DNA from: Thioploca sp.
Lineage (GTDB): Bacteria; Pseudomonadota; Gammaproteobacteria; Beggiatoales; Beggiatoaceae
Direction of reading: 5' to 3'
DNA: 37,890 nt
Assembly: GCA_030627235.1 (NCBI GenBank)
Contig: DAOUSL010000014.1
Span: 1 to 37,890 of the forward strand
Positions 1-36,345 of this stretch are shown one piece after another. A model generated the notes under the pieces. It made no database searches. It saw nothing but the letters and a program-made list of their open reading frames with translations, and was not told where the DNA came from. A program made the position numbers and the translations under genes. Position 1 is the first letter of the stretch, and each line of letters begins with the position of its first letter.

Positions 1-2
1 AA

Positions 3-107
3 AAAATTCCTATTTTTGATAAGGAACATTTATATCTGGCTATTGCTGATTCTCTTAATATTATCACTTCTTCTGATGCTCGTAATTACTTTATACATTA
101 TCTTTAA
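3..107 (+). pseudogene. C-terminal scrap of a probable IS630-type transposase
   Basis: The frame is open from the left edge and stops with TAA at 105-107. It ends with residues like LAIADSLNIITSSDARNYF, which resemble the C-terminal tail of IS630/DDE transposases (alternating hydrophobics, then a DA..WF-like end). Only about 34 codons are visible, so this is either the end of a gene lying to the left or a degraded remnant. The family call is recalled from motif resemblance only and is tentative. Confidence 0.3.
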
Positions 108-134
108 TTTTGGGTCACTACTATTCGGGAATTG

Positions 135-593
135 CTATACTTCATCCACAGCTTCCATAAAACAAGCAATATCTAATTCAGCAATTTGGTCAAGCTCTTG
201 TCTTTTAGGCAGAATCATTTGTTGCAATTCTTTTACTATATCTAATTCTGCACTCATTCGTTTATTTTCTACTGCTAACTATTTATTTAAATCAATAATT
301 TTCTGGTTTGCTTGTTCTAGTTCGGCAGTATGTTTTTGAACTTTAAGTTCTAATTCTTGATTATCCTGCTTTTCTTGTTCAATAAAACGTAAATAGGAAC
401 GAATCCTATTGATTAATTGAATTGTATCAATTGGTTTAGTTAAATAATCTGCTGCACCATTGGCGAAACCTTGTTGCCGAAATTCTTCTGATTTATAAGC
501 TGCGGTCAAAAATACAATTGGAGTATATTTGGTTTTCTTTCTAGCTCGGATTAAGGCAGCAGTTTCAAAGCCATCCACCTCAGAATATTGTCA
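135..593 (-). pseudogene. Broken response regulator with RsbU/SpoIIE-type phosphatase linker
   Basis: The frame begins with the second half of a receiver domain (VDGFETAALIRAR, then FLTAAY and the conserved KP of YLTKPID), followed by a coiled coil. The receiver's first half, including the acidic pair and the phospho-acceptor Asp, is missing; an in-frame TGA lies at 591-593. A TAG at 279-281 interrupts the coiled coil. The same frame then continues with ELQQMILPKRQEL and a final ACFMEAVDEV, the signature linker between receiver and PP2C/SpoIIE phosphatase domains in RsbU-like regulators. It breaks off at TAG 135-137 just where the catalytic GGDYYD motif should start. N-terminal truncation, an internal stop and loss of the phosphatase domain make this a dead gene. 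Confidence 0.65.
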
Positions 594-606
594 AACATCT
601 TGCAAC

Positions 607-1242
607 TCATCGAATTGAATCAGTTTGTGGCATTAGCTTCTTGACAAAATCACGATTGAAAGCGTACCAAATTATTGGAACTGCTAACCCACAAGCAAAA
701 TATGCTAATAATAGTTGTACATGGCTGAATAGATTAAGCATCCATTTGGAATAAATTGGGGCAGGGTATAAATAACCATAGTGGTAGATAAATTCTGCTC
801 CGCCACTTGCGGTTATAGTTGCGATTGAATGAAATACCAACAGCCATAAAACTATTGTGGTTAGTAGAAAAATTATAGAGTTTCCAACAATTTGATTAAA
901 AATTCGTCGTTTAGGAGTGGCTAAAAACCAAGCCCAAAGAACTGGAAAACCAACGGTATAAATTAACAATGGACTAACGGAAACTGTCCAACGTCTATGT
1001 TGACTTGTATCTTTGGGTTGTTGTTTGGTTAATAAATTGGTGCGAACAAACCATCTATCACCTTTTGATTCGTGCAATTCGACTTGTTCTTGATGAAACC
1101 ATAAACTTGCCATTTCCCCAACAACGATACGCAATCCGGGTAAAATTACTGAGTTGACGGAGAACCACCAGAGTATAAAGGCTGGAATTAGCCATAGCAA
1201 AAAATGGAGGGTAAATTTTATTAAGGGATTAAGCTGTTTCAT
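607..1242 (-). CDS. Exosortase H-associated membrane protein
   Basis: A predicted membrane protein of about 211 residues. It has an N-terminal membrane segment (LLWLIPAFILWWF), a soluble loop of about 80 residues, and three further hydrophobic stretches. It overlaps the end of xrtH by 14 bases on the same strand, the arrangement known for the small membrane protein that accompanies exosortase H. An upstream in-frame Met at 1287 gives a longer N-terminus; I chose the Met at 1242 (MKQLNPLIKF) because the longer start lies deep inside xrtH and the extension adds nothing recognisable. Role inferred from context: helping XrtH process or sort secreted IPTL-type proteins at the inner membrane. The assignment rests mainly on the partnership with xrtH; family membership needs a profile search. 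Confidence 0.6.
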   Translation of the reverse strand: MKQLNPLIKFTLHFLLWLIPAFILWWFSVNSVILPGLRIVVGEMASLWFHQEQVELHESKGDRWFVRTNLLTKQQPKDTSQHRRWTVSVSPLLIYTVGFPVLWAWFLATPKRRIFNQIVGNSIIFLLTTIVLWLLVFHSIATITASGGAEFIYHYGYLYPAPIYSKWMLNLFSHVQLLLAYFACGLAVPIIWYAFNRDFVKKLMPQTDSIR

Positions 1243-1729
1243 TAATTTTAACTGGATGAGTAATGACGTAATATAACCAGCTTCCAAATATAACTATCAT
1301 GCTAATATTTATCAGGACTATCCAAACTTGTTTATGAGCTAGATCGAAATATTCTGGCATCCAGTCGCCAATATAAAACAAAGTAATTAAGCGGAAGATA
1401 TTTATAGCTTGGAAAGCAAGTAAACCAAGACCAATTCCCCAGAGTTTTTGTTTCCAACCGCTGTCAAATACAACGATGGCGGCGAGTAATAGCCATGAGG
1501 CTGAAAGAGCGGAACAGTCATCAGCTACTTCTAGGGCAAAGCCGTGAGTTCCATGTCTCATAACTCGGTCAATGAGTATCATGTTGTCGTCAAAGAGGTG
1601 GATAAAGAAGCCTGATATTTTGGCTAGTAATAAGCAGAAGAGGTTGATTGCCGGAAGAAGGGCAGACCATTCAAGTGTGGCAAGGCCGAATAAGGATAAA
1701 ATACAAAAAATGGTGAGGAATTTGGTCAT
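1229..1729 (-). CDS. xrtH: Exosortase H, membrane sorting transpeptidase
   Basis: A 166-residue multi-pass membrane protein with the three catalytic residues of the exosortase/archaeosortase family in the expected places: Cys72 in VADDCSALSAS, Arg113 in INIFRLITLF and His132 in DLAHKQVW, each at the edge of a hydrophobic helix. The short length and DDCSAL context match the compact XrtH subgroup, which recognises proteins ending in an IPTL-x-x-W-G tripartite tail (motif, membrane helix, basic end). The enzyme should cleave such substrates at the inner membrane and pass them to a surface anchor. The next gene is the likely XrtH partner, and a candidate substrate lies about 1.2 kb away at 2883-3479. 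Start is the Met just after the minus-strand upstream gap; no strong Shine-Dalgarno is visible. Confidence 0.8.
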   Translation of the reverse strand: MTKFLTIFCILSLFGLATLEWSALLPAINLFCLLLAKISGFFIHLFDDNMILIDRVMRHGTHGFALEVADDCSALSASWLLLAAIVVFDSGWKQKLWGIGLGLLAFQAINIFRLITLFYIGDWMPEYFDLAHKQVWIVLINISMIVIFGSWLYYVITHPVKINETA

Positions 1730-1807
1730 AGCGTTTAAGTTAATGTAAATTTCATTAGTTTATCTTGGAGACAAACCTATCAGATGCTCAAGAAAGGTGT
1801 TAAATAG

Positions 1808-2469
1808 TTATAAATTTTCTATAATTTTCTTTAAATATTCCCAATCTTTAATCAATCCAGCTTTAAGAAATGATACAAGTTTATCTTCATAATCTTCTCT
1901 TAAATATTGCTTATCGTGTGTAGCGAGGTCTGTATTCCAAATATTAATTTTTGGGTCAAATTCCTTAATTTCTGGAAATATCTTTGCTCTTAAAATTGTT
2001 GCCATCTGAATATAACATCCAATATTATTTTTGCCTTTTCGATCAGGCAAGCATTGGTCAATAGCTAGGTTTAATGCTTTAAAAATATTCCCTCCATCAT
2101 ATCACGTAGCTGAAGTAAATGTTTATTTAAAAAAATATCAATTACATGAAAATGAAATGTTGGTGATAATTTTTCGGCCGCATAAATAAGAAAATGTAAT
2201 TGTGCATATGTTTTTGATGCTTTACCTCGTCCTTTGGAAAAGACAATTTCATCAGGATTAATATTCAATTCTTTTGCAATGATTCGGATAAATCCTTGAG
2301 TAGCTTTTGATTGTAAGAAAAGAGTTTGATTTATTACCTTTTTTCCATCTAATACTCTTTGAACATTACCCAAACTAAACAAGTCAGTTAATGAACCAAC
2401 GGCTGTTTTATGATAAATATCTAATGTACCATTTAATAATGCTACATTCATCAATTGATTTGTCTTCAT
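1808..2469 (-). CDS. KilA-N-like DNA-binding protein, split by a -1 frameshift
   Basis: The first frame runs from ATG 2469 to TAA 2071. The -1 frame continues to 1808, giving about 220 residues if joined. Residues 50-110 (KATQGFIRIIAKELNINPDE, then KGRGKASKTYAQLHFLIYA and LSPTFHFHVIDIF) resemble the KilA-N fold seen in phage and mobile-element proteins. The second part (LPDRKGKNNIGCYIQMA, then EDKLVSFLKAGLIKDWEYL) has a similar composition and looks like the natural C-terminal half. The two frames meet at T_TTA_AAG (2083-2077), a legitimate -1 slippery heptamer; the zero-frame stop follows one codon later. This could be programmed frameshifting, a recent one-base deletion, or a sequencing error in the T run. 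The KilA-N assignment is by eye and moderate. Confidence 0.5.
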
Positions 2470-2734
2470 TTATAATATGGAATTATAGGTTAAAATACTA
2501 TTTTTTTATATTATATATAGTATAAAAATAAAGATAATTATCATATTAATTTAAAGGTTAATATAAACGGGCAAATCTGGTGGTATGTGGGTACATTTAC
2601 AGGTTTTAACTCATGCGATTGGAAAATCTATTTTTCTTAATTTTTGGAGGAGGGAATAATTACAAATTATTATTTAATATTTTTAACTATTTAGCTTGAC
2701 AAGTAACAGAGTATCTACATAACTTTGTTATCAG

Positions 2735-2855
2735 CAAAATCGTAGGGTGTATAAGCGAAGCGTCATACCCAAATTAGAATTAACCAGAAAGCGGGAGTTA
2801 GTTGATTATGTATATGTGGTGTATGACGCTTTCGCTCATACACCCAACGGATTTC
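2735..2855. repeat. MITE-like imperfect palindrome (GTAGGGTGTAT family)
   Basis: The left arm at 2745-2768 (GGGTGTATAAGCGAAGCGTC and on) pairs with 2821-2845, with one mismatch and one inserted base. Similarity continues outward: AAAATCG at 2735 faces the complement of CGGATTT at 2848-2854. The loop is about 50 bases. There is no coding capacity. It sits just inside the left end of the 18-bp-bounded insert. Confidence 0.7.
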
Positions 2856-2882
2856 GAATTTTCTAATCAAGTATTATGCGGC

Positions 2883-3479
2883 TTACGAGTTCAACCAATT
2901 TGTCGAATATCGCCGCCGCATCATCCATCCGGTCACGATTAAGGAGAAGAATACGGAACCGAGGGATACCCATGACTGTAGAATAGGAGCGGCTACCGGA
3001 AGCGAGGTGTGGACTTGATGATTACTGAACCCCGTCCCCACGGTGAAATCACAAGAATAGAACTCCCCGTCGAGTTCGTTACTAAAATAGTGGGTTCCTG
3101 TCCCGATGGAGGCAGTATCGTTGGTCTAGGTGCAGGAATTGCCAACACAAAGAAACGAATTGAATTGTAAAGCAGTGTCGCAGGAAAGAGGCACGTCCGC
3201 CTGGTAGTCGGCGGGAGTACCGTCCACGAGATAAGCGACCGCCACATTTGAAGCGCATGAATTGTTCCAGTTATAATCGCACCAAGAGAAACTCGTAACT
3301 CCAACCCCAGGGGCCAGACAGGCAGCGAAGCCAAGTCCCGGGGTCATGGTACCACAGGATACTAGCCCACATAAAAGCCACCGTCTCCAATACTGTTCAA
3401 TGCGTTTTTTAGATACACTTTTTCTATTATTATAAATAAGTTGAGATGACTTACCCCCCCCCATCAATTTTAGTGCCAA
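2883..3479 (-). pseudogene. Secreted protein with IPTL-like C-terminal sorting signal, G9 tract and in-frame stop
   Basis: The reading frame opens at ATG 3479 and has a hydrophobic export segment at residues 34-52 (RRWLLCGLVSCGTM, then GLGFAAC). A cysteine-containing extracellular domain follows, up to a TAG at 3126-3128. The same frame then stays open for 80 more codons to TAA at 2883-2885. That part ends in APILQSWVSLG, a membrane helix and MMRRRY. This three-part tail matches an IPTL-CTERM sorting signal (IPTLSEWG-type), with P, L and W in register. With the TAG read as an amino acid the protein would be 198 residues. Nine consecutive G lie at codons 6-9, so slippage by one base would throw the whole gene out of frame. 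Base composition is far GC-richer than the neighbours. It is either a recent nonsense pseudogene or a suppressed/phase-variable gene; it is the obvious candidate substrate for the nearby XrtH. Confidence 0.65.
3453..3462. repeat. Homopolymer C9/G9 tract near a start codon
   Basis: Nine C on the plus strand (G9 in the coding sense) directly follow the sixth codon (ATG) of the IPTL-like gene. In a genome this AT-rich a run of nine G is rare, and its position early in a surface-protein gene is typical of slipped-strand phase variation. The exact run length should be confirmed with reads. Confidence 0.6.
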
Positions 3480-3710
3480 TTATAGGTAACTTAATTAATA
3501 ATGTAGTTAACATTTTATATCCTTAAAAAGTTAGTTAAAAAATTAAAAACAACATTGCAATATACACTACATATCTTATATATTAATTGATATATGTCAA
3601 CTGATTAAATCGTTTTTTTGCGTTTTCAGTTAGTTATATTTAAATTAGAGTTAAGGTAGATACTCTGTTACTTCCCAATCACCTGCTCCTAAAAATTTAT
3701 ATACAGCCGG

Positions 3711-8599: not shown

Positions 8600-9349
8600 T
8601 TATTTGATAACAATGGCTCGTAATAATTTCTGTTGGCTAGAATTATCAAGCTTAATATGTTGACCTGCTCGTAAACTTTTAGGTAAAACAATTGGTCCAA
8701 AACGAATTCTAATCAATCGACTAACCTTTATACCCTGAGATTCCCATAAACGTCGCACTTCATGCTTACGACCTTCAGTTAGTATTACATTATACCAATG
8801 ATTAGCTCCTTTACCACCAGCAATCTGAATATCGGTGAAACAAGCTTTTCCATCTTCAAGTTCAACTCCATTTCTTAAACGTTGGAGCATCTCATTATTT
8901 ACTTCACCAAGAACCCGAACTGCATATTCTCGTTCCATACCAGAAGATGGGTGCATTAAACGATTTGCTAAATCACCATCATTAGTTAATAAAATTAATC
9001 CTGATGTATTAAAATCTAAACGGCCAATATTAATCCAACGACCATTTGTTAATGGTGGTAAACTCTTAAATATTGTATTACGTCCTTCTGGGTCATTGCG
9101 AGTACAAATTTCACCACTAGGTTTGTGGTAACATATAATCTGTTGGGTTTGTCCAGTAAATGTCGCTTTAGCTAATTTACGTCCGTCAACTTTAATTTCA
9201 TCATTGGTACCAACTCGGTCGCCAAGTGTAGCAACTTGTTGATTAACTTTAATTCTACCAGTTTGAATCCAAGTTTCCATTTCTCGGCGTGAACCTAAAC
9301 CGGCTCTAGCCAAAACTTTTTGTAATTTTTCAGTGGGTTGGGATTTCAT
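8600..9349 (-). CDS. rluB: 23S rRNA pseudouridine synthase RluB-type
   Basis: A 249-residue protein with an N-terminal S4 RNA-binding domain (LQKVLARAGLGSRREMETWI) and a RsuA/RluB catalytic domain carrying the active Asp in GRLDFNTSGLILLTND (about residue 112). The later motif EGRKHEVRRLWESQG is typical of this family. The likely role is isomerising a uridine in helix 80-93 of 23S rRNA. It lacks the long basic tail of E. coli RluB, so it is somewhat short; RluE or RluF are less likely because the S4 domain and motif order fit RluB best. The start lies 4 bases from the stop of the upstream nuclease-like gene. Confidence 0.85.
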   Translation of the reverse strand: MKSQPTEKLQKVLARAGLGSRREMETWIQTGRIKVNQQVATLGDRVGTNDEIKVDGRKLAKATFTGQTQQIICYHKPSGEICTRNDPEGRNTIFKSLPPLTNGRWINIGRLDFNTSGLILLTNDGDLANRLMHPSSGMEREYAVRVLGEVNNEMLQRLRNGVELEDGKACFTDIQIAGGKGANHWYNVILTEGRKHEVRRLWESQGIKVSRLIRIRFGPIVLPKSLRAGQHIKLDNSSQQKLLRAIVIK

Positions 9350-9352
9350 TAT

Positions 9353-9951
9353 TTATGTTAAATGTCTAATGTTAAGGGATTCGTGTTCTTCTAAATGGTG
9401 AATAAAATATATTTTAATAACTTGTTGTTTACCATCTAGATAGTAAGGTACTTCTATAGGGGAAATTTTATTTCCTTTAGTGAGAGTTTTACTTTTGCCT
9501 GTTTTTATATCAAAGAGTAATCTTTTAATAATTATACTTTTATTGAAATCAAAAAATTCTTTGGCGATTTTTTCAAGATAAAAAATAAAAGTTTCTGAAC
9601 TTCTAAATTTATTGACATATCCTTTAGGATCGGTAGATTTTAATTCGCACAAACATACAATTAATTCATTTTCAACAAGAGTAAATATTACACCATCACA
9701 TACTTTTCGTAGTCCATATTCTTTTTCATTGTTTAAAAACGAACTTAAGACATAACTTTTATCATTAGGGATATCTATATTAAATGCAAAACTATAATTA
9801 ATATCTAAACCAGCTATTGTAACTTTTTTAGTATTGCACTGCTATCTGTTTCATGAAGAATAACGACTCCATTACCATATTTATTCTTAATCTCAACATT
9901 AATTTTTGGATCTTTTAAATTGATGATTTTTCTGAATACTTCAATGGACAT
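9353..9951 (-). CDS. Nuclease-like partner of the AAA ATPase, expressed through a -1 frameshift site
   Basis: ATG 9951 directly follows the TAA of the ATPase gene (TAAATG), so translation is probably coupled. The zero frame gives 43 residues, then reaches A_AAA_AAG (9829-9823) and a TAG at 9816-9814. A -1 slip at this heptamer enters the frame that stays open to TAA 9353, giving a 199-residue product. That product has the spacing of a PD-(D/E)xK nuclease core: Asp86 in VCDGVIF and Glu103-x-Lys105 in CLCELKSTD. Downstream are basic and aromatic residues. Alone, the second frame would have to begin at the Met in MCELKS, inside the core, which is not plausible. Either programmed frameshifting or a one-base loss in the A run explains it. 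The nuclease identity is inferred from the D...ExK pattern and the ATPase neighbour. Confidence 0.6.
9823..9829 (-). promoter_or_regulatory. A_AAA_AAG slippery heptamer, candidate -1 frameshift signal
   Basis: In the zero frame the codons are CTA AAA AAG TTA CAA TAG. The heptamer is the same as the efficient E. coli dnaX signal and the one used by many IS elements. The -1 frame after the slip is exactly the frame encoding the rest of the protein. No obvious strong downstream stem or upstream Shine-Dalgarno stimulator was found by eye. Confidence 0.5.
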
Positions 9952-11319
9952 TTAAATACCCTTTGCAAGCGTTATCTCAGTAAAAGCACAGTTAATATCG
10001 CCAATTTCTTTATCAAAACTATTAACTTCAATACCATATTTTGTAATAGGAGCTTCTGTTAAAGTTTTATTTTCCGCTATATAAACTTTAATATGAGAAG
10101 GAAGTAAATTATCATCTATTGAATATTTAAGTTTTTTTAACACTTCATCTTTATATTCAAAATCATCACTCAACATAATTAAATTATTCAATTCTTTAAT
10201 TAAATAATCACTATGGGTAGTAATAAAAACTTTGATACCTACTTTAACTAAACGAGCAAAAAGTCTAGCTAATTTACGTTGATTAGCCGGATGTAAATTT
10301 AACTCAGGTTCATCAATCATCAAAATATCGCCTTTTTTAGCCATAGAAATGATATAAAAATATAGTTCTAACATTGATTTAACTGCTGATGAAGCCATGT
10401 AAACTGGAATTCTTTCTTTACGACGACCTTTTTTAAATACAAACAAAATTTGGTTACTTTCTATCTTATATTCCCCTCCAATAATTTCTTGCATCATTTT
10501 AAGAAATTCAGGATGTTCTTTGATTAATTGACTTTTCTTTTTACTATGAACATCAACTATATCTCGAACAAAATCAATCCCTTTTTTAATTGGACGTGCA
10601 TAACGTGAAGTTACTTCTTCAAACATACCAAGATAAAAAGTATCTTCAAATATCAGATCTACGTTTTGTAACTGTTCAACAAATATACTTTTCTTAATAT
10701 CTAGTCCTTTATAGAAAATAGAAATCCCTGTTCTTTCTGAAGAAATAGCAAATGGATTAGAAAAATAGCTTCCAAGTAAAGCTTTACCAATGCTTAAGTT
10801 TATAAAATGTTTAGTCATAGAAAGGGATGGAGGAGATATATTTTCATCCTCAATTAGTAAAGATATGTGTAAAATACTTGAATTTTCTTGTTTCTCAAAT
10901 AATAATATATCTTCATTATCGGCCGTTTTAACACTACTTTTAAATGAATTATCTTTATAATTATTATTAGATGAATAAAAAGCTTTAAATTTGGTTGTTT
11001 TGAAAAAATCTTCATGACTACTAAAAATTTTGGGTAAATATTTAATATAATCTTTTGATAAATCCGTTAAAGTTTCATCTATTGTTTGAATAAAATTATT
11101 TAAATCCAATTGAATAGAACCATCACTGTAAAGCTTTGTTAATTTTTCTTCTGGAATATCAAAGGAGATACTTTTGTTCCATATATCTAAAAAACCAAAA
11201 ATAGCATAACTTGCGTAAGTTTTTCCAGTATTATTATCTCCACAAATAATCGTCAAATCACCTAATTCAACAGTTGTTTCTTTATCGAAAATACCCAAAT
11301 TTTTAAATGTAAATTTCAT
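9952..11319 (-). CDS. AAA ATPase of the ABC/OLD-like (AAA_15/AAA_21) class, probable defence component
   Basis: A 455-residue protein. It starts with the typical strand MKFTFKNLGIF, then Walker A GDNNTGKT (27-34). The C-terminal half carries a signature-like helix (MASSAVKSMLELYFYI, 308-323), Walker B ILMIDEPE (332-339) with NLHP, and the switch THSDYL (368-373). The 270-residue insertion between the halves is variable, as in stand-alone RecF/OLD-like ATPases of phage-defence systems. There is no TOPRIM domain. The stop abuts the start of the nuclease-like gene, giving a two-gene module comparable in plan to Septu or PARIS but with a different partner. Its start codon is only 5 bases from the divergent waaC start. 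The defence role is inferred. Confidence 0.75.
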   Translation of the reverse strand: MKFTFKNLGIFDKETTVELGDLTIICGDNNTGKTYASYAIFGFLDIWNKSISFDIPEEKLTKLYSDGSIQLDLNNFIQTIDETLTDLSKDYIKYLPKIFSSHEDFFKTTKFKAFYSSNNNYKDNSFKSSVKTADNEDILLFEKQENSSILHISLLIEDENISPPSLSMTKHFINLSIGKALLGSYFSNPFAISSERTGISIFYKGLDIKKSIFVEQLQNVDLIFEDTFYLGMFEEVTSRYARPIKKGIDFVRDIVDVHSKKKSQLIKEHPEFLKMMQEIIGGEYKIESNQILFVFKKGRRKERIPVYMASSAVKSMLELYFYIISMAKKGDILMIDEPELNLHPANQRKLARLFARLVKVGIKVFITTHSDYLIKELNNLIMLSDDFEYKDEVLKKLKYSIDDNLLPSHIKVYIAENKTLTEAPITKYGIEVNSFDKEIGDINCAFTEITLAKGI

Positions 11320-11324
11320 ATTCT

Positions 11325-12335
11325 ATGCAAATATTAATAGTTAAGACTTCTTCTTTAGGAGATGTAATCCATACTTTGCCGGCAATAACTGATGCTCAAC
11401 AACATTATCCAGATTTACAGATTGATTGGGTGGTTGAAGAAGCATTTGCAGAAATACCAACTTGGCATTCAGCAGTTAAACAGGTTGTACCAGTCGCATT
11501 TAGACGTTGGCGTAAACAAATTTTAACAACTTACTTTAATGGGACTTGGCATCAGTTTAAACAAGTGTTACGCTCTAAGCAATATGATAAAATTATTGAT
11601 GCTCAAGGCTTAATTAAAAGTGCATTTCTTACTTATCAAGCTATAGGATTGCGTTGTGGTTTAGACCGTTATTCTGCTAGAGAACCATTAGCTAGTATTG
11701 CTTATCAACAAAATTATAATATTCTTAAACAACAACATGCTGTTACCAGAACTAGACAGTTGTTTGCTAATATACTTAACTATCCTTTGCCAAATACCCA
11801 ACCTGATTATGGGATTATAAAATATTTTCAGCAACAAACCAATAATAAACAGCCAAAAATAGTATTTTTACATGGAACTACTTGGTTAACTAAACATTGG
11901 CCAGAAAATAATTGGTTAAATTTAGCAAAGTTGGCAACTGCTACTGGAGTGAAAATATATGTGCCTTGGGGAAATTCTAATGAACAGCAGAGAGCGATAA
12001 GGATTGCTTCAGTTCATGAAAACATCAGTATAATTCCCAAAAGTAATTTATATGACTTAGCTATTATTCTAGCACAGTCTCAAGCAGTAATTGGAGTAGA
12101 TACTGGCCTAGCTCATCTTGCCGCCGCATTAGCTGTACCTTCAATTACTTTATATGGTGCAACTCAGCCAGCTTTGACTGGAACTTATGGTAATAATCAA
12201 CAACATTTATCAGCTAATGTCGATTGCTCTCCATGTTTTAATAAAAAATGTTCGGTAAATTTAATTTGTTATGCTGACTTATCAGTAGAAAAAGTTTGGA
12301 ATAAACTACAAAAATTATTAGTTAATAAAAATTAA
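11325..12335 (+). CDS. waaC: ADP-heptose:LPS heptosyltransferase I
   Basis: A 336-residue GT9 enzyme that adds the first heptose to Kdo2-lipid A at the inner face of the inner membrane. The N-terminus MQILIVKTSSLGDVIHTLPA is the classical WaaC start and fixes the start codon. The nucleotide-sugar binding segment includes FLHGTTWLTKHWPENNW and the late motif GVDTGLAHLAAAL followed by ITLYGAT. Length fits the family (about 320). It is divergent from the ATPase gene with 5 bases between start codons, so its promoter and ribosome-binding region must lie inside that gene. Usual lipopolysaccharide-core neighbours are not present here. Confidence 0.9.
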   Translation: MQILIVKTSSLGDVIHTLPAITDAQQHYPDLQIDWVVEEAFAEIPTWHSAVKQVVPVAFRRWRKQILTTYFNGTWHQFKQVLRSKQYDKIIDAQGLIKSAFLTYQAIGLRCGLDRYSAREPLASIAYQQNYNILKQQHAVTRTRQLFANILNYPLPNTQPDYGIIKYFQQQTNNKQPKIVFLHGTTWLTKHWPENNWLNLAKLATATGVKIYVPWGNSNEQQRAIRIASVHENISIIPKSNLYDLAIILAQSQAVIGVDTGLAHLAAALAVPSITLYGATQPALTGTYGNNQQHLSANVDCSPCFNKKCSVNLICYADLSVEKVWNKLQKLLVNKN

Positions 12336-16932: not shown

Positions 16933-17667
16933 TCAACCCATATGCATACCACCATTAATAGCAATATTAGCACCAGTTATAAAACCAGCCTCTTCAGCAG
17001 CTAGGAATATTACAACTCTAGCAATTTCATCAGGATTACCTAAACGTCCAACCGGAATTTGACTTACCATTTGTTTTATAACTTTGTCACTCATGGCAGC
17101 AACCATAGAAGTATTGATATAACCAGGAGAAATTGTATTTACAGTAATACCTTTACGAGCTGATTCTTGAGCAAGTGCCATAGTAAAACCATGCATACCA
17201 GCTTTAGCGGCTGAATAATTAGCTTGACCAATTTGACCTTTTTGACCATTTACAGAAGAAAGATTAATAATCCGTCCAAAACCACGGTTTCTCATTCCAG
17301 TAATAACTTGCTTAGTAACATTAAACACACTATCTAAGTTAACCCGTAATACAGAACTCCACTGGTCTGATGTCATTTTGTGCATAAAACCATCTTTAGT
17401 GATACCAGCACAATTAACTAAAATATCAATTGGCCCAAGTTTTTCTTCAGCCTCTTGTACCATTTTAGTAGCAGCATCAAAGTTAGATACATCACCTTCA
17501 GCAATAGCAAAATTAAATTCTGCATGTTTCACTTGCCAACTTTCACCGTCATCAACACCACGCAACCAAGAGGCTGCAACTTTATAGCCTGAATTAGCTA
17601 ATGCTATGCAAATTTCAGTTCCAATCCCACCTGTTCCACCAGTAACCAGTGCAACTTTATTAGTCAT
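16933..17667 (-). CDS. phaB: Acetoacetyl-CoA reductase
   Basis: A 244-residue short-chain dehydrogenase. It has the cofactor loop TGGTGGIG (9-16), NCAG, the catalytic Ser138, Tyr151 and Lys155 (YSAAK) and the family-specific end GANIAINGGMHMG, which is diagnostic of PhaB rather than FabG. It reduces acetoacetyl-CoA to (R)-3-hydroxybutyryl-CoA with NADPH, feeding polyhydroxybutyrate synthesis. A good ribosome-binding site (AGGAG) lies about 8 bases before the ATG. No phaA or phaC is adjacent, so the other steps are encoded elsewhere. Confidence 0.9.
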   Translation of the reverse strand: MTNKVALVTGGTGGIGTEICIALANSGYKVAASWLRGVDDGESWQVKHAEFNFAIAEGDVSNFDAATKMVQEAEEKLGPIDILVNCAGITKDGFMHKMTSDQWSSVLRVNLDSVFNVTKQVITGMRNRGFGRIINLSSVNGQKGQIGQANYSAAKAGMHGFTMALAQESARKGITVNTISPGYINTSMVAAMSDKVIKQMVSQIPVGRLGNPDEIARVVIFLAAEEAGFITGANIAINGGMHMG

Positions 17668-35156: not shown

Positions 35157-36065
35157 TCAATTTCCAAAATATTGTATCTCAATTTCTATTCTAGTATTTT
35201 TTTGTTTAATTATTGGTGATATACCATATGCAATTGGTTTATGATATCCATGACCAATAGCTTGAATTCGTTCTATAGAGATACCTCGTTCTACAAGTGC
35301 GTTGGCTATTGCTGTAGCTCGTTTTTGAGATAATTTTAAATTCAGTTCATCACGGTTAACTGCGTTAGTGAAAGTATCTGTATGAGAATGAATTTTAATT
35401 ATACCATTATAGAGTTTGCGTAAAGTTGCTGCAATTTCATCAAGCTGATTCTTATTTGTTCGTCTTAAAGTAGAATTTTTAAATTTAAAATTATAAAAAG
35501 AGAATATTGGTTGTACGATTAAATTTATTCCACAATCTGAAAGACTTTTATTAAGTTTAGAATTACTTTCTGGATCATATAAAAGCAATAAATTTTCTTG
35601 AGATATAATTTGATCAGAATCTACAATTGCATAATTTTTTTTAGTTAATAGCTGTGTAATTCTTGTTTTAGAATCCAAATCTATTTTACATATTTGTAAA
35701 TGGGCTTCTAAACTAAGGATAAATTGATTTTGTTCGTAATATAATTCTCCTAAATCGTACCATGCTTCATAAAGATCATTCTTTTGCTTTAATGCTTGTT
35801 TATAATGTTTAATCGCTTGAGAATATTCTCCTGCATTTTCCAACACAAATGCCAAAGAATTATGGATTTCCGGCATATCAGGACAAAGTTGTAGAGCTCT
35901 TTTCAATAACCTTTTTTGTTTAGAAATAACATGCTTTTTAGAATATAAATCATAAGCTTGATAGAGTAATTCATTGGCTTGTTCACAAGTTTCGGTAGCC
36001 ATAGTTATTGGCATCATTAAACTAAACAATACCATTAACATAAATTTTAACTTTAAAATAATCAT
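35157..36065 (-). CDS. TPR-OmpA envelope protein
   Basis: A 302-residue exported protein with a signal peptide (MIILKLKFMLMVLFSLMMPI). TPR repeats follow (NSLAFVLENAGEYSQAIKHY, YEAWYDLGELYYEQNQFILS), then a C-terminal OmpA-like peptidoglycan-binding domain (IKIHSHTDTFTNAVNRDELN, LSQKRATAIANALVERGI, IQAIGHGYHKPIA). It probably anchors to peptidoglycan in the periplasm. A longer reading frame extends to 36179, but its first 38 codons lie in a palindromic repeat and precede the signal peptide; the Met at 36065 is the real start. The repeat begins only 9 bases before this start, so the gene's upstream signals are partly supplied by the repeat. Confidence 0.82.
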   Translation of the reverse strand: MIILKLKFMLMVLFSLMMPITMATETCEQANELLYQAYDLYSKKHVISKQKRLLKRALQLCPDMPEIHNSLAFVLENAGEYSQAIKHYKQALKQKNDLYEAWYDLGELYYEQNQFILSLEAHLQICKIDLDSKTRITQLLTKKNYAIVDSDQIISQENLLLLYDPESNSKLNKSLSDCGINLIVQPIFSFYNFKFKNSTLRRTNKNQLDEIAATLRKLYNGIIKIHSHTDTFTNAVNRDELNLKLSQKRATAIANALVERGISIERIQAIGHGYHKPIAYGISPIIKQKNTRIEIEIQYFGN

Positions 36066-36074
36066 TTTTACAAC

Positions 36075-36201
36075 AATACCTTCGCCAATGCCAGAATGTT
36101 TCGGGAATGAGGTCGATTTCCTGAAACCCAAGTAACGTAAGAGTTTCGGGAAATCCGCTTCGCTCCATTCCCGAAACAACTATCTAATTGGCGAAGGTAT
36201 T
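36075..36201. repeat. MITE-like element upstream of the TPR-OmpA gene
   Basis: Terminal inverted repeats AATACCTTCGCCAAT (36075-36089) and ATTGGCGAAGGTATT (36187-36201) are perfect. A second inner pair (GTTTCGGGAATG and CATTCCCGAAAC) lies inside. Total length is 127 bases with no coding potential. Both families of ends differ from the GTAGGG repeats in this window. Confidence 0.75.
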
Positions 36202-36345
36202 ATTACAAGATACACTAATTTAAATTACTTAATATATTTATTCCTTAATTTTTTATTAATAATAACTAAAATAGTGGTTAGAATACTAAAAATCATTATT
36301 TTATATATTTAAAATTTAGGTTTTACAATTATAAATTGACATTAT

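Follow-up and report, generated by a model that had tools for sequence, protein, structure and literature searches.

Probable inactivation of a PD-T4-4-type nuclease gene by a recent one-base loss, in a genus of giant sulfur bacteria in which the pair decays

An ATPase gene and its nuclease-like partner lie side by side in the window, a 37,890-nucleotide stretch of a Beggiatoaceae genome (G000) from the same genus as Ca. Halobeggiatoa sp. HSG11 (G010); the partner breaks off at A_AAA_AAG, a classical -1 slippery heptamer, and resumes in the -1 frame. We asked whether this heptamer is a signal for programmed frameshifting or the scar of a mutation. The features of the locus are as follows.

9952..11319, minus strand: PD-T4-4_A-like ABC/AAA_15 ATPase, 455 aa, intact frame, with P-loop GDNNTGKT and Walker B ILMIDEPELNLHP
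9814..9951, minus strand: frame-0 part of the PD-T4-4_B gene, from ATG to a premature TAG, 45 aa
9823..9829, minus strand: A_AAA_AAG heptamer in slippery phase, the point at which the frame breaks; HSG11 has seven A and one frame here
9353..9832, minus strand: -1-frame portion of PD-T4-4_B (159 aa and the stop codon), which bears the nuclease-core D and ExK
9638..9697, minus strand: predicted catalytic stretch CDGVIF...CELKS (D-x16-E-x-K), with ExK conserved across homologues
9346..11321, minus strand: unit common to the window and HSG11, 89% identical in DNA, in a different chromosomal context

The second gene (B) begins with an ATG at 9951, immediately after the ATPase stop codon TAA, and the frame opened by this ATG runs for 45 codons to a TAG (9951..9814). 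The break reads ATA CTA AAA AAG TTA CAA TAG, with the heptamer at an offset of 122 from the ATG, in phase 2. From before the heptamer down to 9353, the -1 frame stays open for ~162 codons and carries both the D (codon 9697-9695) and the ELK (9646-9638) of the putative nuclease core; a read-through product of the two frames would comprise 199 aa, with ...AILKKVTIAGLD... across the junction. A previous reading of this DNA, made from the sequence only, had described abutting genes, A_AAA_AAG at the break and D...ExK in the -1 frame, and in all of this it was correct. The pair is flanked by a pseudouridine synthase gene and a heptosyltransferase gene, with hardly any promoter space on either side: 5 nt separate the ATPase ATG from the divergent heptosyltransferase ATG (11319-11325), and 3 nt separate the B stop from the start of the next gene (9353/9349). 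Elsewhere in the window, the ORFs of positions 1-3500 are fragmentary; among them are a truncated response-regulator domain (282-578), a KilA-N-like ORF (2074-2469) and further ORFs at 2993-3479. Positions 36040-36240 contain a dispersed repeat of ~130 nt (query 17272-17405), which recurs dozens of times in G010 and G011.

Both genes match the PADLOC profiles of the PD-T4-4 defence system, in agreement with the proposed ATPase and nuclease-family partner of a defence module. The ATPase matches PD-T4-4_A over residues 1-450 (E 1e-138) and Pfam AAA_15 (1e-27), and the 199-residue read-through product, for which a profile search had been suggested, matches PD-T4-4_B at 6e-20. The -1 frame alone still matches PD-T4-4_B at 2e-16 and includes the D and the ELK, which shows it to be real coding sequence. 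The PADLOC candidate PDC-M47 is also recognized (PDC-M47A at 5e-130, PDC-M47B weakly at 2e-6), but both genes score higher with the PD-T4-4 models. PD-T4-4 came to light in a functional selection performed in E. coli (Vassallo et al. 2022, PMC9519451), and published work places its second protein among the PD-(D/E)xK nucleases (PMC10952713; PMC12137116 Extended Data Fig. 4). The window pair resembles it in (i) its layout, a two-gene operon of an AAA_15/ABC-type ATPase followed by a ~200-residue PD-(D/E)xK-type nuclease, and in (ii) its strong profile matches, nearly full length for A and covering most of B; it differs in that B is split by a one-base loss, and its anti-phage role is a prediction from sequence. 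Because of the premature TAG after 45 codons of B, we class the pair, by its profile matches, as a degenerate member of PD-T4-4. A second PD-T4-4 pair, assigned by profile, lies in the same genome on contig C437 (L041 2782-4092); there the nuclease gene is intact and expressible, in contrast to B in the window.

The PD-(D/E)xK fold of B rests mainly on the motif and the literature, since the AlphaFold model of an intact B homologue (L046, from Ca. Albibeggiatoa) is of low confidence (mean pLDDT 54). With this model, Foldseek gave no match below 0.001, and PD-(D/E)xK enzymes, among them McrC, Card1 and DdmD, make up most of the best VIA rows at Z ~5, which agrees with such a fold but is no proof of it. 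The ExK is invariant in the B alignment (A4). A search of solved structures by sequence returned none for B, and for A matched a generic ATPase motif only.

To judge the break itself, we compared the site with homologous B genes. In HSG11, whose ATPase is 85% identical to that of the window, the site reads CTA AAA AAA GTT, with seven A, and the frame continues; some 90 nt downstream, however, B is disrupted there by the gain of a T and a 6-nt deletion, a lesion that a -1 shift would not restore. Across a family-wide search of 43 genomes, splits or in-match stops were confined to two B genes, those of G000 and HSG11. The close homologues in other genera are in one open frame in all seven cases: four of them (G041, G040, G028, G031) carry A_AAA_AAA or A_AAA_AAG in slippery phase at the corresponding Leu-Lys-Lys-Val motif and encode the entire protein in frame 0, and three (G001, G030, G008) have no slippery-phase heptamer there. 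Homologous loci are also found in Ca. Albibeggiatoa, Ca. Parabeggiatoa and Thioploca, and intact B genes lie 3' of the ATPase in further named genomes. The order to which the window belongs comprises a single family with 25 genera, in accord with the Beggiatoaceae, for which 25 GTDB genera are given (PMC11172852). As the homologues are unshifted and the breaks are confined to G000 and HSG11, the heptamer is best explained as a side effect of Lys codons that follow a codon ending in A. Indeed, the heptamer here stems from the Leu-Lys-Lys-Val stretch common to the homologues, and among 26 other genes of the window A_AAA_AAG is found in phase two times; the heptamer is within what chance allows, unlike the open -1 frame. 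The sequence-only reading had named uniformly unshifted homologues that lack the heptamer as evidence against its frameshift. Uniformly unshifted they are, but the heptamer is not absent from them, several carrying A_AAA_AAR with the full protein in frame 0.

Beyond these loci, a class-wide search with the B alignment in 369 sampled genomes found B in the G000 genome only. Viral contigs yielded neither a relative of the ATPase nor an exact copy of the break, and plasmids yielded no B match and only short DNA matches to the ATPase at 60-80%. In Ca. Parabeggiatoa (L047 5211-6418), a partial second ATPase, limited to its first 175 residues, lies after the pair and may be a tandem or decayed copy. 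In Nitrosomonas communis Nm44 (L056 3572-5133), a distant ATPase homologue is spread across several frames and the next ORF encodes only 80 aa, which is likely to be another decayed pair.

The strongest alternative to a mutational scar is programmed or otherwise useful -1 frameshifting, by which a small, fixed share of full-length nuclease would limit a toxic effector, as the sequence-only reading had proposed. The heptamer lies in the correct phase for it and is that of the dnaX site (PMC5009743), among the most shift-prone in E. coli (PMC4066793, PMC5009743); it thus shares heptamer and phase with -1 frameshifting in dnaX and IS elements. It differs from them in having neither stimulators nor conservation as a shift site, and in that its homologues are unshifted. 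RNA folding downstream of the site was weaker than in shuffled sequences (z +1.0 to +1.7, pseudoknot-free folding), no Shine-Dalgarno-like motif (AGGA/GGAG-like) was present in the 30 nt upstream, and conservation of the site among homologues that would need a shift was not found. Two further candidate explanations were tried and rejected: (i) hidden constraint at the site, where the perfectly identical stretch of 25 codons that G000 and HSG11 share looks striking but lies within the range of shuffles (median maximum 27), and (ii) an internal restart of the nuclease, for which the -1 frame offers no ATG, GTG or TTG before the catalytic D, the first listed being the TTG at 9652. Published criteria assign to pseudogenes a frame transition whose site is not conserved and which occurs in no more than two genera (PMC3711429), and the pattern here fits these criteria rather than those of a programmed shift.

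The age of the lesion bears on the same alternative. Between G000 and HSG11, A has a dN/dS of 0.25 and B one of 0.24 (bootstrap 0.13-0.44), so that B appears to have been under selection until recently and the lesions to be young. This coding signature is intact on both sides of the break, and the polarised amino-acid changes in B, small in number, are 1 on the G000 branch against 7 on the HSG11 branch; both observations speak for recoding, and the few changes on the G000 branch would also be compatible with continued production by slippage. Against it stand the HSG11 gene, unshifted at the site and broken elsewhere in a way beyond -1 repair, the unshifted homologues and the missing stimulators, as well as the related WonB, which is restrained through Lon-mediated proteolysis and not through recoding (PMC12137116), and the decay of the locus by other routes in the genus. 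We therefore consider programmed shifting in a fixed ratio improbable.

These other routes are seen at and around the same site. The unit common to G000 and HSG11 is exactly the pair (9346-11321), which in HSG11 adjoins nitrate-reductase-like genes instead (neighbours named by eye from translations). At the same site in G012, 292 nt remain, in which ~150 nt of the ATPase start are joined to the decayed end of B. In G009, the closest relative over the window, ~20 nt separate the flanking start codons and no pair is present; the site is apparently empty, through loss or as the original state. In G011, the ATPase is cut after 63 codons and no close B was found in its incomplete assembly; the G012 assembly is likewise incomplete, and for both genomes pair loss refers to the site examined. 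The cut in G011 adjoins an inverted repeat (CCCAAACTCCAGTTTGGTAACGC, L042 1300-1460), which may be a small mobile element.

If the A run had been misassembled or misread, the gene would be intact, and a lesion of one homopolymer base in an otherwise conserved gene is what such an error would look like. We compared the proteins of the other window genes with the syntenic stretches of G009, G010 and G012: over 26 genes, which span 26.3 kb and include 61 homopolymer runs of at least 6 (6-8), no frame break was seen, which makes an error at the A run unlikely; moreover, the lesion that HSG11 carries in this gene is a different one. Quite doubtful, too, is the view that the one-base loss was a tolerated or selected "savior" change, with leaky -1 slippage keeping a trace of a toxic nuclease. 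Were it true, an all-or-nothing defence effector would have become a low-dose effector. Phase variation, in which slipped-strand changes between six and seven A would switch the nuclease off and on, accords with six A in G000 and seven in HSG11 but is scarcely credible, given that Lys codons account for the run, which is short, that the homologues have no lengthened tract, that HSG11 with its seven A is off for another reason, and that runs of 6-8 in other genes keep their frame.

Taken together, we conclude that a recent one-base loss most probably inactivated the effector of a decaying PD-T4-4-type pair, and that the heptamer is not a selected signal. This conclusion is based on profile membership, intact copies elsewhere and independent lesions in relatives. 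The pair would consist of an ABC-ATPase sensor and a PD-(D/E)xK-type nuclease effector, whose gene would recently have lost one A from the homopolymer that encodes the conserved Leu-Lys-Lys-Val stretch; A_AAA_AAG would be what remains of the shortened run, without selection as a signal. The main product would then be an inactive 45-residue fragment beside an intact ATPase, which favours the other option considered in the sequence-only reading, a dead effector: B stops at 45 codons and the locus decays in the genus. The nuclease has thus presumably lost its function. Low-level ribosomal slippage may still give traces of full-length nuclease, as frameshift-prone heptamers without stimulators in E. 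coli exceed no-motif controls 2.1- to 10-fold (control 0.055%; PMC4066793); such a trace is plausible, and its use is unsupported.

For the intact system, our working model follows WonAB of Vibrio cholerae (PMC12137116), also an ABC-ATPase sensor with a PD-(D/E)xK nuclease, which its authors call similar to PD-T4-4. WonAB nuclease is active only with its ATPase and acts in abortive infection through a translation stop, and Lon proteolysis keeps WonB under control (PMC12137116). By the authors' account, the two systems differ in ATPase inserts and a C-terminal extension, a comparison made here by description. By analogy, the window-type ATPase would sense infection and license the nuclease, upon which growth would stop; the nuclease would be toxic only with the ATPase, and the ATPase without B should give no defence.

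In AT-rich genomes, a one-base loss in a run of Lys codons can yield a perfect-looking A_AAA_AAG, and the heptamer alone is therefore weak evidence for programmed shifting. For the family, these findings place a published defence system in giant sulfur bacteria, along with its repeated breakdown: a single genus shows two distinct frameshifts in the nuclease gene, an ATPase cut short, a remnant left by deletion and a site that is apparently empty.
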